Below, one piece after another: positions 9,187-31,616 of a stretch of 33,014 nucleotides of DNA. Every line of letters starts with the position of its first letter. Within the stretch, counting starts at the first letter, position 1. The position numbers were made by a program, and so were the translations under genes. The stretch comes from a virus: positions 1-33,014 of IMG/VR virus record IMGVR_UViG_3300046332_000019. The stretch is one strand, 5' to 3'. The notes under the pieces are model-generated. The model ran no database searches and was not told the DNA's origin. It was given only the letters and a program-made list of their open reading frames with translations.

Positions 9187-9810
9187 ATGAATAAACACTA
9201 TAAATGGTATGTCTATGAACTAATCAATCCTATTGATGGAAAGACGTTCTATGTGGGCAAAGGTTCTGGTAACAGAATAGAGTATCACGAGAAAGAAGCG
9301 CTAAAAGAGGTATGCTCAAAAAAGTGCAATAAAATCAAGCACATATGGTCGCTTGGATTTGAAATTCACCGTAGAAAAAATGCCTTGTTTTGGGATGAGC
9401 AAGCTGCATACGATCATGAAACCGATCTAATTGCCGAGATTGGTTTACAAAACCTAACAAACATCATGCCTGGCGGTCAAACAGCGTTTGATCGTAGGTT
9501 GGTTGAACGTAGTTTGCGCCAGCAAAATGAGCCAAGGCCGTTTAAAGAATATTTAGCCAAGCTGCCAGCAGAAAGTGCCTTCTTTGATAGGTTTGCTGAG
9601 TGGTTTAAGGCTGGATTACACAATGGTGGAACAATCGTAGCTACTGCTAAAAACGATAAATTTAAGTTTCATGCAACTATTACAGAGGTTGCATATAACA
9701 AGATATTGCCAATGTTTTGGAGCTTGATTAAGGCTGATGACGAATCATTGCAAATCTTCACAGAAAAGATGAAATATCACAAAGTGGAGCTATGTTATGG
9801 CGGCGCGTAA
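9187..9810 (+). CDS. GIY-YIG homing-type endonuclease
   Basis: The N-terminal GIY-YIG nuclease domain is plain: YVYELINPIDGKTFYVGKGS, with GIY as YVY (8-10), YIG as YVG (22-24), R30 as the catalytic arginine and E91 (or the nearby E95) as a candidate metal-binding glutamate. The remainder (about 110-207) is probably a DNA-target-recognition region. AAGGAA lies about 9 nt before the ATG. The gene is wedged between the 8551 gene and the terminase genes, and its last 14 nt overlap the small-terminase start. It is probably a free-standing homing endonuclease; it shows no intron sequences around it. Confidence 0.8.
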   Translation: MNKHYKWYVYELINPIDGKTFYVGKGSGNRIEYHEKEALKEVCSKKCNKIKHIWSLGFEIHRRKNALFWDEQAAYDHETDLIAEIGLQNLTNIMPGGQTAFDRRLVERSLRQQNEPRPFKEYLAKLPAESAFFDRFAEWFKAGLHNGGTIVATAKNDKFKFHATITEVAYNKILPMFWSLIKADDESLQIFTEKMKYHKVELCYGGA

Positions 9811-16517: not shown

Positions 16518-16829
16518 ATGGACAACACACAATTTCGACAATCAACGGCACACGCTGACGGTGACGGCGGCATTATTGTTGCGACTAAGCAAGATGTTTC
16601 AGGCATCATTGAAGCGAATAAAAAAGAGTACAACTCTTACGATGAACGCGCAAAGTGGTCTGATGAACTGTTTGGCAACAAAGTGGCTTCAATTCCGTTC
16701 ACGGCTATTGATGAATTGAACAAACAAGGTGTTATGCGTGGGTTTGCCATACTTGATGAAGTGCGTTTTGCTTCTTTCTTGAATGACCCATTAAACCGCG
16801 CTTGGCGCACACGACCAGGTAAAGTATGA
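16518..16829 (+). CDS. Conserved protein after the capsid gene (103 aa)
   Basis: Reads ADGDGGIIVATKQDVSGIIE in the N-terminal half and KVASIPFTAIDELNKQGVMR, then FLNDPLNRAWRTRPGKV in the C-terminal half. This end pattern is a recurrent virion-region family of unknown role downstream of SU10-type capsid genes. There is no ribosome site before ATG 16518. It overlaps the adaptor gene by 4 nt. Confidence 0.65.
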   Translation: MDNTQFRQSTAHADGDGGIIVATKQDVSGIIEANKKEYNSYDERAKWSDELFGNKVASIPFTAIDELNKQGVMRGFAILDEVRFASFLNDPLNRAWRTRPGKV

Positions 16830-17446
16830 GCATTGCAACCTACTCTGAGTTAAAGACAGCGATTGCCAATTATTTGGCACGTACTGATTTGACCGATCAA
16901 ATTCCTGACTTCATTCGATTTGCAGAGCTTCGCTTGCGCCGTGAGTTGCGTATTCGTCAAATGCTCAAATCAGTGACTACCGCAACAACTGGTGGCGATT
17001 CCACTGTTGAACTGCCAAGTGACTTTATTGAGATTCGTGATTTTGCCGTTGTTGGCAATCCGATTCAGCCATTGACTTACTCAAGTCCTGCTGTGTTCAG
17101 TCGCAACACTCGCTCCACTGAGAGCGGAAAGCCATTGGACTACACAATCTTGGCCTCTGAGTTCCAGCTCGCTCCAATTCCTGACTCTGCCTATACATTG
17201 AAGCTGTTGTACTTTGCTGCACCAACATTCTTGGGTGACACAAATGCAAGCAACGTATTTATTGCAAACGCTCCTGATGCGCTTTTGTATGCTTCATTGC
17301 TTGAGGCAGAACCTTACATAATGAACGATGCTCGAATCAATACATGGGGCACTATGTATGACCGAGCAATCTCTACGCTCACCAAATCTGACGAATCATC
17401 TCAGTATTCTGGTGTTCCACTGTCAATGACAACCACACTGAGGTAA
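16826..17446 (+). CDS. Head-tail adaptor protein (SU10-type)
   Basis: The 206-aa protein opens SIATYSELKTAIANYLARTD, followed by IPDFIRFAELRLRRELRIRQ. This is the pattern of SU10/P22-type adaptor proteins that sit below the portal. The centre (VELPSDFIEIRDFAVVGNPI) and the helical end (DALLYASLLEAEPYI) also fit. It would join portal and tail hub. It follows the previous gene by an ATGA overlap. Confidence 0.8.
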   Translation: MSIATYSELKTAIANYLARTDLTDQIPDFIRFAELRLRRELRIRQMLKSVTTATTGGDSTVELPSDFIEIRDFAVVGNPIQPLTYSSPAVFSRNTRSTESGKPLDYTILASEFQLAPIPDSAYTLKLLYFAAPTFLGDTNASNVFIANAPDALLYASLLEAEPYIMNDARINTWGTMYDRAISTLTKSDESSQYSGVPLSMTTTLR

Positions 17447-17449
17447 TTT

Positions 17450-17836
17450 ATGTCCGAAATGTCAAACTATCTTGAGACAGCGCTGGTTAATGCCACGCTT
17501 CGCAATACAGCCTACACAAGCCCATCGGCTGTGTACTTGGCTCTTTACACTGCTGACCCAACTGATGCTGATTCAGGCACTGAAGTGTCTGGCACTTCTT
17601 ACGCCCGTCAAGCAATCACTTTTGGCGCTCCATCAAACGGCGTGACAACTAACTCTGCTGCAATTGAGTTTCCTCAAGCTGGTGGCTCATGGGGTACTGT
17701 TACACACGTTGGCATCCGTGACGCTTCTACCGCTGGCAATTTGTTGTATCACACTGCCTTGGATGCTTCTAAGACAATTGCAACTGGTGACGTGTTCCGT
17801 GTTGCCTCTGGTTCTTTGAGCGTAACCTTGGCGTGA
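17450..17836 (+). CDS. Conserved virion protein, possible fibre or decoration type (128 aa)
   Basis: Begins MSEMSNYLETALVNATLRNT and continues YTSPSAVYLALYTADPTDAD, with YARQAITFGAP, WGTVTHVGIRDA and LLYHTALDASKTIATGD near the end. I recognise this beta-rich family as common among phage tail-region proteins, sometimes labelled tail fibre. It lies between adaptor and repeat-protein genes. Family recognition is good, precise function uncertain. Confidence 0.65.
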   Translation: MSEMSNYLETALVNATLRNTAYTSPSAVYLALYTADPTDADSGTEVSGTSYARQAITFGAPSNGVTTNSAAIEFPQAGGSWGTVTHVGIRDASTAGNLLYHTALDASKTIATGDVFRVASGSLSVTLA

Positions 17837-17837
17837 T

Positions 17838-18668
17838 ATGGCTGATTTGCTCCCACCGTGGACAATTGACAGCCTAGACAATCTAAAGGCTAGTCTTGAC
17901 GATTTAACGCTGTCGCTTGACAGTGATTTATATACAACGTCTGTCACTCTGTGGGATGCTTACGGTTCAGTTAATGCGACTGCAACTGTAAGCTCTGGGT
18001 CAACTGTCACGTTTGGAGCTTCGGCTTCTGTTTTTAGTTCGGCCTCAGTATCGTGCGAAGCAATCAGGGTTGTTATTGGCTCTGGTTCAATGGAATCCTC
18101 TGCAAGCTCGTCTTGTGACGCGACTAGGGTTTGTGTTTCCAATGCTTCAATCACGGCTTCTAGCGTTGTTACAGCCATTGCGCAGCGCATTGCAGTTGCT
18201 TCTGCTGATGTTTCTTGCAGTGCAGAAGTTTCTGCTGTTGGTGGATTACTGTTAAATGGCGTTGCCTCTGTAACGTGTGACGCTACGGTAAGCGCTGATT
18301 CCGTCCGAGTTCGCCAGGCTGATGCTGCTATTTCTTCAAATGCAACATTTACAGCCTTGGGCGGTATCACTGCAAACGCTGATGCTTCTGTTGTCTGTGA
18401 GGCAATCGTTACCGCTGACGCTTATGCTGTCTTTGACTTTACAGGCTCAATTGCTTGTGAAGCAATAATTGTCTGTAATGGCGTAAGGCTCGGCGACAAT
18501 TGGGGCGATGTGACAGGCTCAGACAATACATGGTCTGATGTGTCAGTAGGTGGAAACACTTGGACAACTTCAAGTGCAAACTCAAACACTTGGGATGATG
18601 TGTCGGTTGGCTCAAACTCTTGGGTTGACACATCCACTTCAACAAATACATGGTTAAGACAAGGCTGA
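17838..18668 (+). CDS. Tandem-repeat virion protein (20-residue and 10-residue repeats)
   Basis: Two repeat systems are visible. Residues about 69-210 carry a beta-rich repeat with a core like SVSCEAIRV, VTCDATVSA or VVCEAIVTA. Cysteines (or an equivalent residue) fall at 73 and 93, then about 107, 127, 147, about 167, 187 and 207, a 20-residue period with one short step. Residues 221-272 carry NTW repeats: W222, 232, 242, 252, 262 and 272, exactly 10 apart, with D-V-S between. The N-terminus (PPWTIDSLDNLKASLDDLTL) is distinct. A beta-solenoid fibre or adhesin is the likely architecture. It is encoded between adaptor and hub genes, so a surface or tail role is inferred. Confidence 0.6.
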   Translation: MADLLPPWTIDSLDNLKASLDDLTLSLDSDLYTTSVTLWDAYGSVNATATVSSGSTVTFGASASVFSSASVSCEAIRVVIGSGSMESSASSSCDATRVCVSNASITASSVVTAIAQRIAVASADVSCSAEVSAVGGLLLNGVASVTCDATVSADSVRVRQADAAISSNATFTALGGITANADASVVCEAIVTADAYAVFDFTGSIACEAIIVCNGVRLGDNWGDVTGSDNTWSDVSVGGNTWTTSSANSNTWDDVSVGSNSWVDTSTSTNTWLRQG

Positions 18669-18669
18669 T

Positions 18670-20109
18670 ATGGCTACACAACGAATCCCCTTTGGCGAAT
18701 GGATGCCAGATCAGCCTGGCATCTCTGGCGCTTTGACTGACGCTAAGAACTGCGTTTCTCAAGCTGTTGGTTATGGCCCGTTTCCGCAAGCTGTGGTTTT
18801 CTCTGCCGCTGCTGCTGAAAACCTAACCAGTGTTTTTGCTAGTAAACAACCAGACGGGGTTACAAAGCTGTTTGCCGCTGGTCGAACAAAGATTTACACT
18901 GTTTCAGGTGTTGGCGCTGTTACTCAGGTTAATACTGGATATACAACCGCTGCAACAGAGCGATTTAGGTTCACTCAGTTTGGCGATAACGTCATTTGCA
19001 CTGATAACTCGTCAAAGTTGCAATCTTGGGTTCTTGGAACTTCAACTGCATTTGCTGACTTGTCTGCTTCTGCGCCTATTGCTAAATACATCACGGTCGT
19101 TCGTGATTTTGTTGTTGTGGCTAATACCTACGAATCTGCAAAGCAAGAGCAATATCGTGTTCGTTGGTCTGGTCTGAATGATGAGACTGCCTGGACACCT
19201 TCGTCTACAAATCAAGCTGATTTCCAAGACATTGCTGATGGCGGTCAGATAATGGGAATCCGTGGCGGCGAGTTTGGCTTGGTTCTTTTGGAGCGAAGCA
19301 TCCACCGCATGAGCTATATCGGCACGCCGCTGATTTTCCAGTTTGACAACATTAGCCGCAACAAGGGCTGCATGGTGTCAGGCTCAATTGCTCAATATCA
19401 AGGAATCACGTTTTTCTTGAGCGATGATGGTTTCTATATGTGCGATGGTCAACAAGTCATGCCAATTGGTTCTGAAAAGGTTGATCGTTGGTTCTTGGAT
19501 GATGTAAGCGAGAACGACTACTCCACAATGTCAGCCGCTGTTGACCCTGTTCGTAAGTTGATTTTGTGGAACTACAAGAGCAAAGACGGCTCACGTAAGC
19601 TGATGGCGTACAACTTCAACACAAAGAAGTGGACTTACACAGACGCTGGCACAGATTTTATTTCTGACGCTTCTAGTGCATCCTCTACGCTTGAGGAATT
19701 GGACAGCGTGAGTTCATCTATTGATGCGCTTTCTACGCCAATGGATTCGATTCTGTTTACTGGCGGCAAATACTTCTTAGGTGGAACTCTTGCAACAAAG
19801 GTGATGACCTATACAGGCACGCCAATGACAGCACGAATCCAAACAGGAGACATTGAAGCTGGCGGGCAGTCTTTGGTTACTTTGGCACGTCCTCAAGTAG
19901 ATCAAGGCTCTGCAACCGTTGCAGTGGCTTCCCGCAGGTTATTAAGCCAGGACATTACTTACAGCACAGCAGTTGCAGCAAGTGATGACAACCGCGTTCC
20001 ATTGCGAGGCTCTGGTAAATACCACCGCATTGAAGTAAACCCTACTGGCGACCGTTGGAAGTCAGCCGTTGCCGTAGATATTGACCTTGTATCGCAGGGG
20101 GTTCGCTAA
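18670..20109 (+). CDS. Putative tail hub/nozzle protein
   Basis: A 479-aa beta-rich protein. Repeated short strands with W/Y/D patterns (NVICTDNSSKLQSWVLG, WSGLNDETAWTPSS, GITFFLSDDGFYMCDG, KLILWNYKSKDGSRKLMAYN) resemble the propeller-like tail hub proteins (P22 gp10/SU10 nozzle type). IPFGEWMPDQPG and the later SIHRMSYIGTPLIFQFDNIS are typical of these proteins, often called DNA-stabilisation or hypothetical proteins. Position directly after adaptor and fibre-like genes fits. The exact family is not certain from reading alone. Confidence 0.65.
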   Translation: MATQRIPFGEWMPDQPGISGALTDAKNCVSQAVGYGPFPQAVVFSAAAAENLTSVFASKQPDGVTKLFAAGRTKIYTVSGVGAVTQVNTGYTTAATERFRFTQFGDNVICTDNSSKLQSWVLGTSTAFADLSASAPIAKYITVVRDFVVVANTYESAKQEQYRVRWSGLNDETAWTPSSTNQADFQDIADGGQIMGIRGGEFGLVLLERSIHRMSYIGTPLIFQFDNISRNKGCMVSGSIAQYQGITFFLSDDGFYMCDGQQVMPIGSEKVDRWFLDDVSENDYSTMSAAVDPVRKLILWNYKSKDGSRKLMAYNFNTKKWTYTDAGTDFISDASSASSTLEELDSVSSSIDALSTPMDSILFTGGKYFLGGTLATKVMTYTGTPMTARIQTGDIEAGGQSLVTLARPQVDQGSATVAVASRRLLSQDITYSTAVAASDDNRVPLRGSGKYHRIEVNPTGDRWKSAVAVDIDLVSQGVR

Positions 20110-20888
20110 TGTTTCGCACATTACCGCCTTTTGGTGGCGATCAACGTGCTGTGGCTGAAGTCGTCAACGGGGTAATGAACGGCAAGACCAATAACACTGG
20201 TTCCGTAACATTGACAACAGGTGGCGCTTTGACGACCACAATCACTGATGAGCGAATTGGCTACGATTCAAAGATTATCCTGATTCCAGCATCTACTGCG
20301 GCTTATGCTGATAGTACGCCCTACGGGTCTTTCCAAGATATGACAACGCAAACAATTTCATCAACTACAACTGCGTATGCGATGAAATTCGACACCGTTG
20401 ACTATTCAAGTGGTGTAAGCGTTGTAAGCAATTCAAGGCTCACAGTTCTAAATTACGGCATTTACAATATTCAATTTAGTGGGCAGTTTGCTAACTCTGA
20501 TGCTTTAATTCAAGACGTTGATATTTGGCTAAGTAAAAATGGTACAAATGTTGCACTATCAAAAGGCCAAGTTTCAATTGATGGGAAGCATGGATTTGTT
20601 GATGGGCACATCTTGCCTGCTTGGAACTACTTTATTGAATTGAATGCTGGCGACTATGTTGAATTGATGTGGCAAGCCTCTAGCACTCAAGTTTCAATGA
20701 TCTCATTGCCTACTGCTACAAGCCCAACAAGACCTGCTGCGGCTTCAATTATTGCAACTGTTCAGTATGTGGCTCCATCATCAACAACAAACGTCTATGT
20801 GAGCGCAAAAGCCAAAGGCTCTGCAACATTGACCCATTTTGCAAACTCAACAGCCAACAAAACATACGACTATGTAATTGTTGGATAA
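20109..20888 (+). CDS. Fibre-like protein with inserted jelly-roll domain
   Basis: The two ends read as one conserved small virion domain split in two: NNTGSVTLTTGGALTTTITD ... SKIILIPAS at about 28-63, and NVYVSAKAKGSATLTHFANS ... TYDYVIVG at 228-259. The middle (about 72-225) is a beta-rich block with YGIYNIQFSGQFANSD, DVDIWLSKNGTNVALSKG and LNAGDYVELMWQA, the strand pattern of C1q/TNF-like jelly rolls used by fibres and depolymerase-type tails. Such a domain could contact host polysaccharide. The start overlaps the previous stop by 1 nt. Confidence 0.65.
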   Translation: MFRTLPPFGGDQRAVAEVVNGVMNGKTNNTGSVTLTTGGALTTTITDERIGYDSKIILIPASTAAYADSTPYGSFQDMTTQTISSTTTAYAMKFDTVDYSSGVSVVSNSRLTVLNYGIYNIQFSGQFANSDALIQDVDIWLSKNGTNVALSKGQVSIDGKHGFVDGHILPAWNYFIELNAGDYVELMWQASSTQVSMISLPTATSPTRPAAASIIATVQYVAPSSTTNVYVSAKAKGSATLTHFANSTANKTYDYVIVG

Positions 20889-27596: not shown

Positions 27597-28029
27597 ACAG
27601 ATTGAAACCCTAGTCTGGGGTTTTGTTGTAGTAGTCGTAACGCTAATCTTGGCTTTCATTGTGATCGCCTTGCTTTACTCTGTGACCTTTGTTGTCCAGC
27701 CAATCAAGTCAATGGCTCCTATTGACATGGCCTACACCAAGATGCTCAACGATATTGTTTTGCTCGTTGTTGGCGGTATCGGTGGCGTAATGAGCCGCAA
27801 AGGTATCAACGCAATGAGTGGCGGCATTAGCGCCAGCATTGAGAAGACTACCAGTGGGAGTACAACGCCCCCAAAGCCTCTTGACCCATCGGGTGCTTTG
27901 CCTGTATGGGTCAATCCTGCTTTAGATGAATCGTGGACACCTCCACCTCCACCAACAACGCCACCAGATCATCTTGAATCAGATCAAGAGCGTGAGCATT
28001 TGGCACTTGCAAGGGCTTCAAATGATTAA
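27559..28029 (+). CDS. Membrane protein with two helices and Pro-rich tail (156 aa), holin candidate
   Basis: Start TTG 27559 (read MSQSKHPHRLSVEQIETLVW), supported by GGAG 8 nt upstream. Two membrane segments lie at about 19-43 (TLVWGFVVVVVTLILAFIVI...) and about 68-84 (IVLLVVGGIGGVMSRK). The Pro-rich tail has ESWTPPPPPTTPPDH and would sit in the cytoplasm or periplasm. Position right before Rz makes this the best holin candidate, but topology does not prove it. Confidence 0.6.
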   Translation: MSQSKHPHRLSVEQIETLVWGFVVVVVTLILAFIVIALLYSVTFVVQPIKSMAPIDMAYTKMLNDIVLLVVGGIGGVMSRKGINAMSGGISASIEKTTSGSTTPPKPLDPSGALPVWVNPALDESWTPPPPPTTPPDHLESDQEREHLALARASND

Positions 28030-28477
28030 CCCGTGGATGATTATTGGTGTGATTTGTGTTGTGCTTGGCACATACAAATATGGCACTTATTCTGGTCACA
28101 AGCAACGCGATCAAGAAATGCAAATCGAGATTGCAAAGTTAAATGAAGAATCACGCGCTAAAGAGCAAAAACTTGCTGAAGACTTGAATCAAACATCTTC
28201 ACAATTGAAAGAGGCTAACGATGTTGTCACTAAAAAACAAACTGATCTTGATCTTGCCATTCGTTCTGGCAGGGTGCGCCTCAACGCCAGTTGCCCACAA
28301 GGGAGTGCAAGTTCCACCACTGCCAGCGGAGATAACCAAGCAGGAAGCGAATCTGAGCGCGAGACTTTACGACTTATTAGTGAAATCGCAGCAGAAGGTG
28401 ACAGAGCTATCAACAAGCTCAACGCCTGCATCACAGCCTACGAGCAAGTAAGATCGCAAGTAAATGAAATAAAATAG
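28022..28477 (+). CDS. Rz: Rz-like inner-membrane spanin subunit
   Basis: I start at ATG 28022 (MINPWMIIGVICVVLGTYKY), overlapping the preceding stop. An N-terminal membrane helix (about 4-19) precedes a long periplasmic coiled coil (about 30-80, IEIAKLNEESRAKEQKLAED). This is i-spanin architecture. The gene contains the Rz1 reading frame in the +1 frame, the nested arrangement known from lambda. With Rz1 it would fuse inner and outer membranes at the end of lysis. Confidence 0.85.
   Translation: MINPWMIIGVICVVLGTYKYGTYSGHKQRDQEMQIEIAKLNEESRAKEQKLAEDLNQTSSQLKEANDVVTKKQTDLDLAIRSGRVRLNASCPQGSASSTTASGDNQAGSESERETLRLISEIAAEGDRAINKLNACITAYEQVRSQVNEIK
28221..28451 (+). CDS. Rz1: Rz1-like outer-membrane spanin lipoprotein
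   Basis: Entirely embedded in Rz in the +1 frame. Signal peptide with lipobox: MLSLKNKLILILPFVLAGCA (Cys at 19). The mature part is Pro-containing (VQVPPLPAEI) and ends in a Ser/Thr-rich tail. Nesting, lipobox and partner together make the o-spanin call firm. Confidence 0.85.
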   Translation: MLSLKNKLILILPFVLAGCASTPVAHKGVQVPPLPAEITKQEANLSARLYDLLVKSQQKVTELSTSSTPASQPTSK

Positions 28478-28537: not shown

Positions 28538-29038
28538 ATGGCTAAAGAAATTTTAACGCAAGCACGTTTACAGGAATTGTTTTCTTATGATGAGCAAACT
28601 GGCTACTTTGTAAGAAAAATAACAATAGCAAACAATGCAAAAGCTGGATACATTGCAGGAACTGTAAACAAGAAATTAGGATATGTGATTGTTTCTATTG
28701 ACAACAGTCAGTATTACGCACATAGACTTGCTTGGTTATATAAAAATGGAGTTTTCCCAGATGGTCAAATTGACCACATAAACAGGGAAAGATGCGATAA
28801 CAGAATTTCAAATTTGCGTCAGGTTACGTCAGGGCAAAACAAACAAAATACAAATGTAAGAATTGACAATAAATCTGGTGCAAAAGGAGTTTTTTGGTAT
28901 AAACAAAGAAACAAGTGGATTGCTTATATTAGAGTAAATGGCAAAAGACACTCTCTTGGATATCATGTAAATTTTGAAGATGCAGTTTTAGCAAGAAAAA
29001 GCGCAGAAGATAAATTCTTTACACATCATAAAGGTTAG
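28538..29038 (+). CDS. HNH/AP2-type homing endonuclease (166 aa)
   Basis: The HNH core is plain: YYAHRLAWLYKNGVFPDGQI, then DHINRERCDNRISNLRQVT (about 79-97). An AP2-type DNA-binding domain follows (NKSGAKGVFWYKQRNKWIAY). The N-terminus LTQARLQELFSYDEQTGYFV is shared with the minus-strand endonuclease at 31095. The DNA is visibly richer in A/T than its neighbours, as expected for a mobile gene. It is inserted between the spanin and endolysin genes. No intron flanks are seen, so it is probably free-standing. Confidence 0.88.
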   Translation: MAKEILTQARLQELFSYDEQTGYFVRKITIANNAKAGYIAGTVNKKLGYVIVSIDNSQYYAHRLAWLYKNGVFPDGQIDHINRERCDNRISNLRQVTSGQNKQNTNVRIDNKSGAKGVFWYKQRNKWIAYIRVNGKRHSLGYHVNFEDAVLARKSAEDKFFTHHKG

Positions 29039-31094: not shown

Positions 31095-31577
31095 TTAAAT
31101 TGCGTCTGGGTTGTGTGTGTGGTACTTGGCTGCTGCATCGCAATAAGCCTTGTACGCATCTTCTTTGTCGTTGTATCTGCCAAGTCCAATGGTTTTGCCT
31201 TTGTGCTGTATGCAAGCAAACCATTTTTCTCTTTGTGTGTCCCAACTAACGCCTTTGTAACCAGACTTGTTGTTTGCTTGTTTTTCTTTGTTTTCTTGAT
31301 TCTGTTTTTTGCTAACAGGTCGGAGATTTACAAGTCGGTTGTCAGTTGGAATTCTGTTTACATGGTCAATGTATTCTGGCAATTCGTCATAAACATAAAG
31401 CCAAGCCAAACGATGCGTAAGGTATAGCTTTCCATTGATGTTGATTCTGAAATAACCTTGACCACAATGACCAGCGTTAGTGCCTGCTTTGCAGCGACCG
31501 CGCCTTACTTTGTTGGTAAAAATTCCAGTTTCTTTGTTGTAATCAAACAACTCATGCAAACGTTGTTGCGTAATCAT
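31095..31577 (-). CDS. HNH/AP2-type homing endonuclease (160 aa)
   Basis: I chose ATG 31577 (MITQQRLHELFDYNKETGIF), whose opening matches the 28538 endonuclease. The HNH core is LTHRLAWLYVYDELPEYIDH then VNRIPTDNRLVNLRPVSKK, with DHVN at 71-74. The AP2 domain is NKSGYKGVSWDTQREKWFAC. The A/T-rich DNA and position between the SSB-like and winged-helix genes fit insertion of a mobile gene, placed in the transcription direction of the leftward unit. AAAGG lies upstream of the start. Confidence 0.88.
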   Translation of the reverse strand: MITQQRLHELFDYNKETGIFTNKVRRGRCKAGTNAGHCGQGYFRININGKLYLTHRLAWLYVYDELPEYIDHVNRIPTDNRLVNLRPVSKKQNQENKEKQANNKSGYKGVSWDTQREKWFACIQHKGKTIGLGRYNDKEDAYKAYCDAAAKYHTHNPDAI

Positions 31578-31616
31578 GATGAACCTTTCATGCGTGAACC
31601 TGTTAAAAGTTAGCAA

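Follow-up and report, generated by a model that had tools for sequence, protein, structure and literature searches.

The window analysed here, the whole stretch of 33,014 nucleotides taken from a viral record of IMG/VR, contains a gene whose product is built of 20-residue units followed by a run of evenly spaced tryptophans. The question raised by this locus is what a protein of such regularity does in the phage and whether its regularity is preserved in other phages. The features considered are collected in Table 1.

Table 1. Repeat gene, its parts and the neighbouring tail genes in the window
Feature	Coordinates	Strand	Remarks
Tail adaptor	16826..17446	+	PF24175 SU10_adaptor E 2.4e-35; PDB 7z47
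Gp80-like protein (Pfam 'Podophage GP4 fiber I protein gp80')	17450..17836	+	PF23140 E 6.4e-52; PDB 8jou E 5.8e-14
Repeat protein gene	17838..18668	+	276 aa, stop included in coordinates; ATG start, TGA stop
N-terminal head, residues 1-45	17838..17972	+	near-invariant; probable virion anchor
Shaft, residues 41-220: nine 20-residue units	17958..18497	+	small odd positions of low entropy, polar even positions higher
C-terminal Trp ladder, residues 221-276, one Trp per 10 residues	18498..18665	+	
Nozzle	18670..20109	+	phrog_3287; PDB nozzle chains 8zkm, 8zkk, also 9nwi

Two repeats in one frame

Each unit of the shaft has exactly 20 residues, with zero insertions. Self-identity at lag 20 amounts to 68 (shuffled mean 24.1) and at lag 10 to 47 (25.1). 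Neither value was reached in 5,000 shuffles, in agreement with the very regular double repeat that had been described from the sequence. The lag-20 signal has a z of 9.4; none of 106 genes taken from the rest of the window and from five related records exceeds a z of 4. The shaft also shows a lag-6 signal, which is only a hint; left-handed beta-helices have a hexapeptide motif of [LIV]-[GAED]-x-x-[STAV]-x hexads.

The tryptophans of the protein are residues 8, 39, 222, 232, 242, 252, 262 and 272. The exact spacing of 10 between residues 222 and 272, as first noticed, was confirmed, since no such run of six appeared in 200,000 random placements of eight Trp. Counting from residue 41, the ladder Trp occupy unit positions 2 and 12, and both repeats stand in one frame. 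The first ladder Trp comes after a whole number of units in 52 of the 68 non-redundant close relatives and one residue short of it in 12 more. The (N)TWxDVS motif ascribed to the ladder is found literally only in NTWSDVS and NTWDDVS, whereas other units read NTWTTSS, NSWVDTS and NTWLRQG.

The composition of the protein is skewed. No DNA-level tandem array beyond 22 bases was found in the gene, and the identity between units averages 28% in protein and 42% in DNA, indicating that the repeat is old and has been maintained at the protein level. Recent slippage as the source of the repeat is ruled out by the absent tandem array and the low DNA identity among units.

The repeat gene is encoded inside a tail gene cluster

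The portal, capsid and adaptor of the window belong to SU10 families, and the repeat gene is encoded inside the cluster of tail-structure genes. The order adaptor, Gp80, repeat gene, nozzle was found in 142 of 150 type-1 loci, a number that covers both scans described below and counts some contigs twice; the remaining eight loci miss one or more of the four genes in the sequence covered. The repeat protein matched no Pfam family at E 0.1, and so not PF23140, and no PHROG family. Among its relatives, 10 of 59 match phrog_6851, a family given no function (best E 0.00033).

Other ORFs of the window deserve a mention. The ORF right after the nozzle gene (20109-20888) has no Pfam match and a Gly/Thr-rich start, and to judge by where it lies it may encode a tail needle or tip protein. 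A lipoprotein-like small ORF (28221-28451), with a signal ending in LAGC, lies in another frame within a longer ORF (27926-28477), an arrangement that by eye resembles nested Rz/Rz1 spanin genes. Also by eye, the ORFs at 9187-9810, 28538-29038 and 31095-31616 (minus strand) look like GIY-YIG or HNH endonucleases and are possible homing genes.

Unit consensus, selection and fold

The unit has the consensus [AG]-S-[AG]-S-[IV]-T-[ACG]-x-A-T-V-[TS]-[AC]-x-[AG]-x-R-[VI]-x-x, derived from 68 non-redundant relatives. For this set, and likewise for the entropies and length counts given below, proteins at least 93% alike were merged, and the incomplete or truncated type-1 proteins L037, L069, L070 and L074 and three named phages were left out. 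Small or aliphatic residues fill the odd positions up to 15, which, position 7 excepted, are mostly of low variability, while the even positions are polar and more variable. Such regular alternation of small (buried-type) and polar (exposed-type) positions is found in beta-solenoids and beta-helices.

Selection follows the same division. Whole-gene dN/dS has a median of 0.23 (151 pairs of 18 same-length sequences), which denotes purifying selection, and in the shaft of these 18 sequences odd positions have 0.18 and even positions 0.41. This is the pattern that would be expected if the shaft were made of beta-strands with one face buried and the other exposed. The value is 0.04 for the first 45 residues and 0.24 for the Trp part; 38 of the 45 columns of the head are invariant in 24 sequences, and entropy is 0.15 in the N-terminal part, 1.06 in the shaft and 1.04 in the ladder. 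As in fibres, the head, a probable anchor, is conserved and the distal part varies or can be exchanged.

The cysteines had been regarded as a second series of 20-residue steps. They are residues 73, 93, 99, 127, 147, 187, 207 and 213, and nine pairs of them are separated by multiples of 20, which did not happen in any of 20,000 random placements, but they follow two phases (73/93 and 127/147/187/207, with 34 residues from 93 to 127) and not a single one. Seven of the eight occupy unit positions 7 or 13, where the relatives have mostly Ala, Cys or Gly. The Cys series is thus a by-product of the shaft and not a conserved repeat in its own right. A disulfide ladder was also considered and is ruled out, since the relatives have from one to nine Cys, often an odd number, and mostly Ala, Cys or Gly at those two sites.

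Structure prediction was poor: the AlphaFold2 monomer of the window protein (59 rows) had a pLDDT of 48.1, and that of the most regular relative, L114 (36 rows), was worse (36.4). A fold search of the PDB with the poor model gave no match at E <= 0.001, most of its weak matches being to beta-helix proteins, and a sequence search found no solved homologue in the PDB. Foldseek matched the low-confidence model to minor tail proteins of the mycobacteriophages UncleRicky and Tourach (E 2.2e-5 and 1.0e-3; TM-scores 0.18-0.41). These matches are only a lead and are not taken as proof of fold because both models are poor. A beta-solenoid or fibre had been anticipated; the adaptor, Gp80 and nozzle context is of the fibre type, but the pLDDT values and the fold search do not establish the solenoid.

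Relatives differ by whole units

The first scan of IMG/VR yielded 84 relatives in 93 candidate stretches and the second one 423 in 429. The best 80 of each were kept. There were 121 complete close relatives, 104 of them distinct. Their lengths cluster at 194-196, 216, 275-276 and 294-296 residues, and in 68 proteins the length modulo 20 is 16 in 46, 15 in 20 and 14 in 2. Only 1,368 of 2,884 internal pairwise gaps are multiples of 20, which is weak evidence for 20-residue steps because gaps become divided when repeats are aligned. The total lengths give a clearer picture, and individual close pairs show clean gaps of 20 and 60 residues. The expectation that repeat number would vary between phages is borne out, the counts differing by whole 20-residue units. 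On a tree of 65 adaptor proteins, in which near-identical adaptors with the same length class were merged, 6, 9 and 10 units are found in 11, 14 and 40 rows, respectively (the last class including one row counted with 9 and one with 4 Trp), and 7 or 8 units in none. These classes need at least 14 changes on the tree. Distant relatives have from 3 to about 21 units.

The C-terminal halves of L104 and L105 are near-identical, while their shafts differ by one 20-residue gap and many substitutions, a pattern that looks like allele exchange. The Trp lattice persists among relatives that share as little as about 50% identity. The original prediction was to be abandoned if disorder was predicted and the repeat was not conserved; on the side of conservation, the repeat is conserved.

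Other heads can stand before the same shaft and ladder, as at least three other N-termini were found there (MADVCGPF..., MFGI...F...FSxLG... and MAYADQYVEVGYYDYGYAVG...). The profiles of types 1 and 3 match with an E of 6.1e-41 over the shaft and the start of the ladder. In the distant locus L431 the gene after Gp80 encodes a protein of 493 aa, which consists of a 20-residue head and then units of 20 residues, with 10-spaced Trp at the end.

Several loci call for separate comment. The contig IMGVR_UViG_3300049844_000006 (56,925 b) has two copies of the tail locus (L106 and L110) more than 30 kb apart, whose repeat proteins share 64% and 61% identity with the window protein; these are either joined phages or a real duplication. 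The sole bacterial contig with a relative, labelled Alphaproteobacteria, may be a binning accident. In GenBank the genes at L082 8773-9549 and L083 8749-9465 are called 'serine-rich adhesin' and 'E3 ubiquitin-protein ligase HERC6', which look like misannotation. Venkman gp55 (L083 5098-7290; 730 aa), with a very strong 17-residue period (z 23.6), is a repeat fibre of another kind encoded in the same cluster. The available text of PMC8163748 describes Venkman, one of the relatives, as a siphovirus by class with a short tail in micrographs, which its authors consider a possible preparation artefact.

Gp80 and the repeat gene are present or absent together

Among 176 distinct adaptor-to-nozzle intervals, 169 have both genes, seven have neither and none has a single one, although some of these intervals had been collected by means of the repeat protein and were bound to contain its gene. 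Loci selected through the adaptor agree. In a first set of 80, the 66 that span the region from adaptor to nozzle all contain Gp80 and the repeat gene, and the other 14 do not include the two flanks together; MW202710, added to the comparison, has neither gene. A second set consisted of 80 loci and again MW202710: both genes are present in 59 and absent from eight, one of them MW202710, and 14 do not include the two flanks together. In an adaptor tree with 64 rows, one change accounts for the phages with neither gene, which are drawn among those with both (support 100/99; midpoint root), suggesting that Gp80 and the repeat gene were probably lost together once; the joint absence is a single event. 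A PF23140 search gave no match in the whole of MW202710 or in four partial contigs, though the same search also matched no control, and the repeat profile gave there only two weak matches, on the minus strand.

The association does not extend to a general rule. That Gp80 always precedes a 20-residue repeat is true within the clade of the window and fails in distant loci, where a clear 20-residue repeat is found downstream in 3 of 13; none was seen at the Gp80 loci of CRP-4, Mvi-JY20 and Lietuvens. In Sporosarcina phage Lietuvens, which has baseplate genes, ORF27 (L288 5403-6326) adjoins the Gp80-like gene and has repeat-like stretches before a DUF2313 baseplate domain (period-20 z 1.6).

Comparison with known fibres

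In short-tailed phages of the SU10 kind, fibres hang on the adaptor and the nozzle. The window resembles Escherichia coli phage SU10 in its homologous portal, capsid and adaptor families and in its nozzle-type gene. According to the available text of PMC9509320, the SU10 tail consists of the adaptor gp11, the long fibres gp12/gp13, the short fibre gp16 and the nozzle gp17, the fibre genes being numbered between adaptor and nozzle with the long fibres after the former and the short one before the latter. No solved SU10 chain matches the repeat protein by sequence, however, and the SU10 short fibre is anchored through three Trp of the nozzle dock loop and not of the fibre (same text).

The gene preceding the repeat gene is a homologue of Ralstonia phage GP4 fiber I (gp80, PDB 8jou, PF23140), whereas the repeat protein has no convincing match to any PDB chain; GP4 fiber II is ORF78 in the available text of PMC11966396. 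The Gp80 profile of the window matches 8jou only and not the chains of Anabaena phage A-1(L). The latter phage offers a likeness in its gp82-gp81-gp80 proteins, a bead-chain accessory neck fibre from neighbouring genes, but that fibre owes its length to a single bead protein present about 14 times (available text of PMC10966104) and not to 20-residue units within one gene.

Further parallels lie directly after the Gp80-like gene in four other phages: BcepIL02 gp56, JC1 gp54, phiM5 gp18 and a ctjtQ328 gene (L156 8398-9078), with 20-residue period z values of 7.8, 3.3, 3.4 and 10.8, respectively. Trp spaced by 10 are present in phiM5 gp18 and ctjtQ328, while a Trp ladder is missing from the two Burkholderia proteins, and all four differ from the window protein in heads and unit sequence. 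Mycobacteriophage Lumos gp022 lies upstream of a Gp80-like gene and has a 20-residue period (z 6.2), and no Trp ladder was seen in it. Our literature search, confined to open-access papers, found no description of such repeats or of the GP4 fibres.

A probable accessory fibre and its alternatives

The repeat protein is probably the shaft and tip of an optional neck or tail fibre of a short-tailed phage, working with the Gp80-like protein. Its position, its joint presence and absence with Gp80, the conserved head, the quantised shaft and the Trp lattice support this reading. The poor models, the missing solved homologue, the mixed virion evidence from relatives and the distant Gp80 loci with other partners count against it. 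The co-presence with Gp80 would also suit an assembly helper, serving the Gp80 fibre as a chaperone or template that is later removed and forms no permanent part of the virion, and the virion data speak on both sides of this unlikely reading. BcepIL02 gp56 is annotated as virion-associated, whereas its 53% identical homologue JC1 gp54 is absent from the virion list in the available text of PMC9144972 (Table 6), which includes the neighbours gp53 and gp55, and phiM5 gp18 lacks the 'detected' note carried by its Gp80-like neighbour. The absence of JC1 gp54 is not simply a digestion artefact, because it yields 11 tryptic peptides of 7-30 aa; the window protein and phiM5 gp18 would give only three (20% coverage) and two (17%), respectively. 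The length alleles, swappable heads and Trp ladder, on the other hand, seem to fit a displayed rod better than a helper.

A whisker-like decoration of the head or collar, placed on the capsid side instead of the tail, is improbable: PHROG labels the Gp80 family a head protein and in A-1(L) a pentadecamer bears five neck fibres (available text of PMC10966104), but the gene lies between adaptor and nozzle and no capsid-binding domain was recognised with Pfam and PHROG profiles. The low AlphaFold2 confidence and the skewed composition might be those of a disordered Ser/Ala/Thr linker of low complexity with periodicity from slippage, which we consider very improbable in view of the missing DNA tandem array, the odd/even constraint and the persistence of the Trp lattice down to about 50% identity. 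It is scarcely credible that the protein is an adhesin exported to the host surface, as the GenBank name 'serine-rich adhesin' in MW202462 and MW202481 has it, given the place of the gene within a tail operon, the absence of any Pfam family at E <= 0.1 and a near-invariant N-terminus that by eye is unlike a signal peptide.

For the accessory fibre we propose the following arrangement, in which attachment point, trimeric state, fold and host contact are what we infer. The first 45 or so residues would dock on the adaptor/Gp80 collar, and Gp80 and the repeat protein would form one accessory fibre. The Ala/Thr-rich units may fold into a narrow beta-structured rod, probably trimeric, with the small odd-position residues (Ala, Gly, Val, Cys) facing its interior. 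One unit would be one rung, and reach would then change in fixed steps. The six Trp could stack as a rigid end piece, and the variable positions between them may contact the host surface or cap the rod.

We conclude that this is a real, well-conserved and unnamed protein family, probably a variant of the phage accessory fibre and not a new kind of system. More tentatively, in this fibre family of uncultured phages reach might be a discrete and exchangeable trait, set by swapping alleles of 6, 9 or 10 rungs under a fixed head and a fixed Trp-ladder tip, and the whole Gp80-fibre cassette might be lost in a single step with the tail retained. For the gene at present called 'serine-rich adhesin' or 'E3 ubiquitin-protein ligase HERC6', a likely function is thereby provided. 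The length of a phage fibre is normally hard to read from sequence, and here it is encoded in whole units, with many natural length variants between fixed ends and a cassette-less clade that is a natural knock-out, so that the relation between reach and adsorption can be tested by comparing natural isolates.
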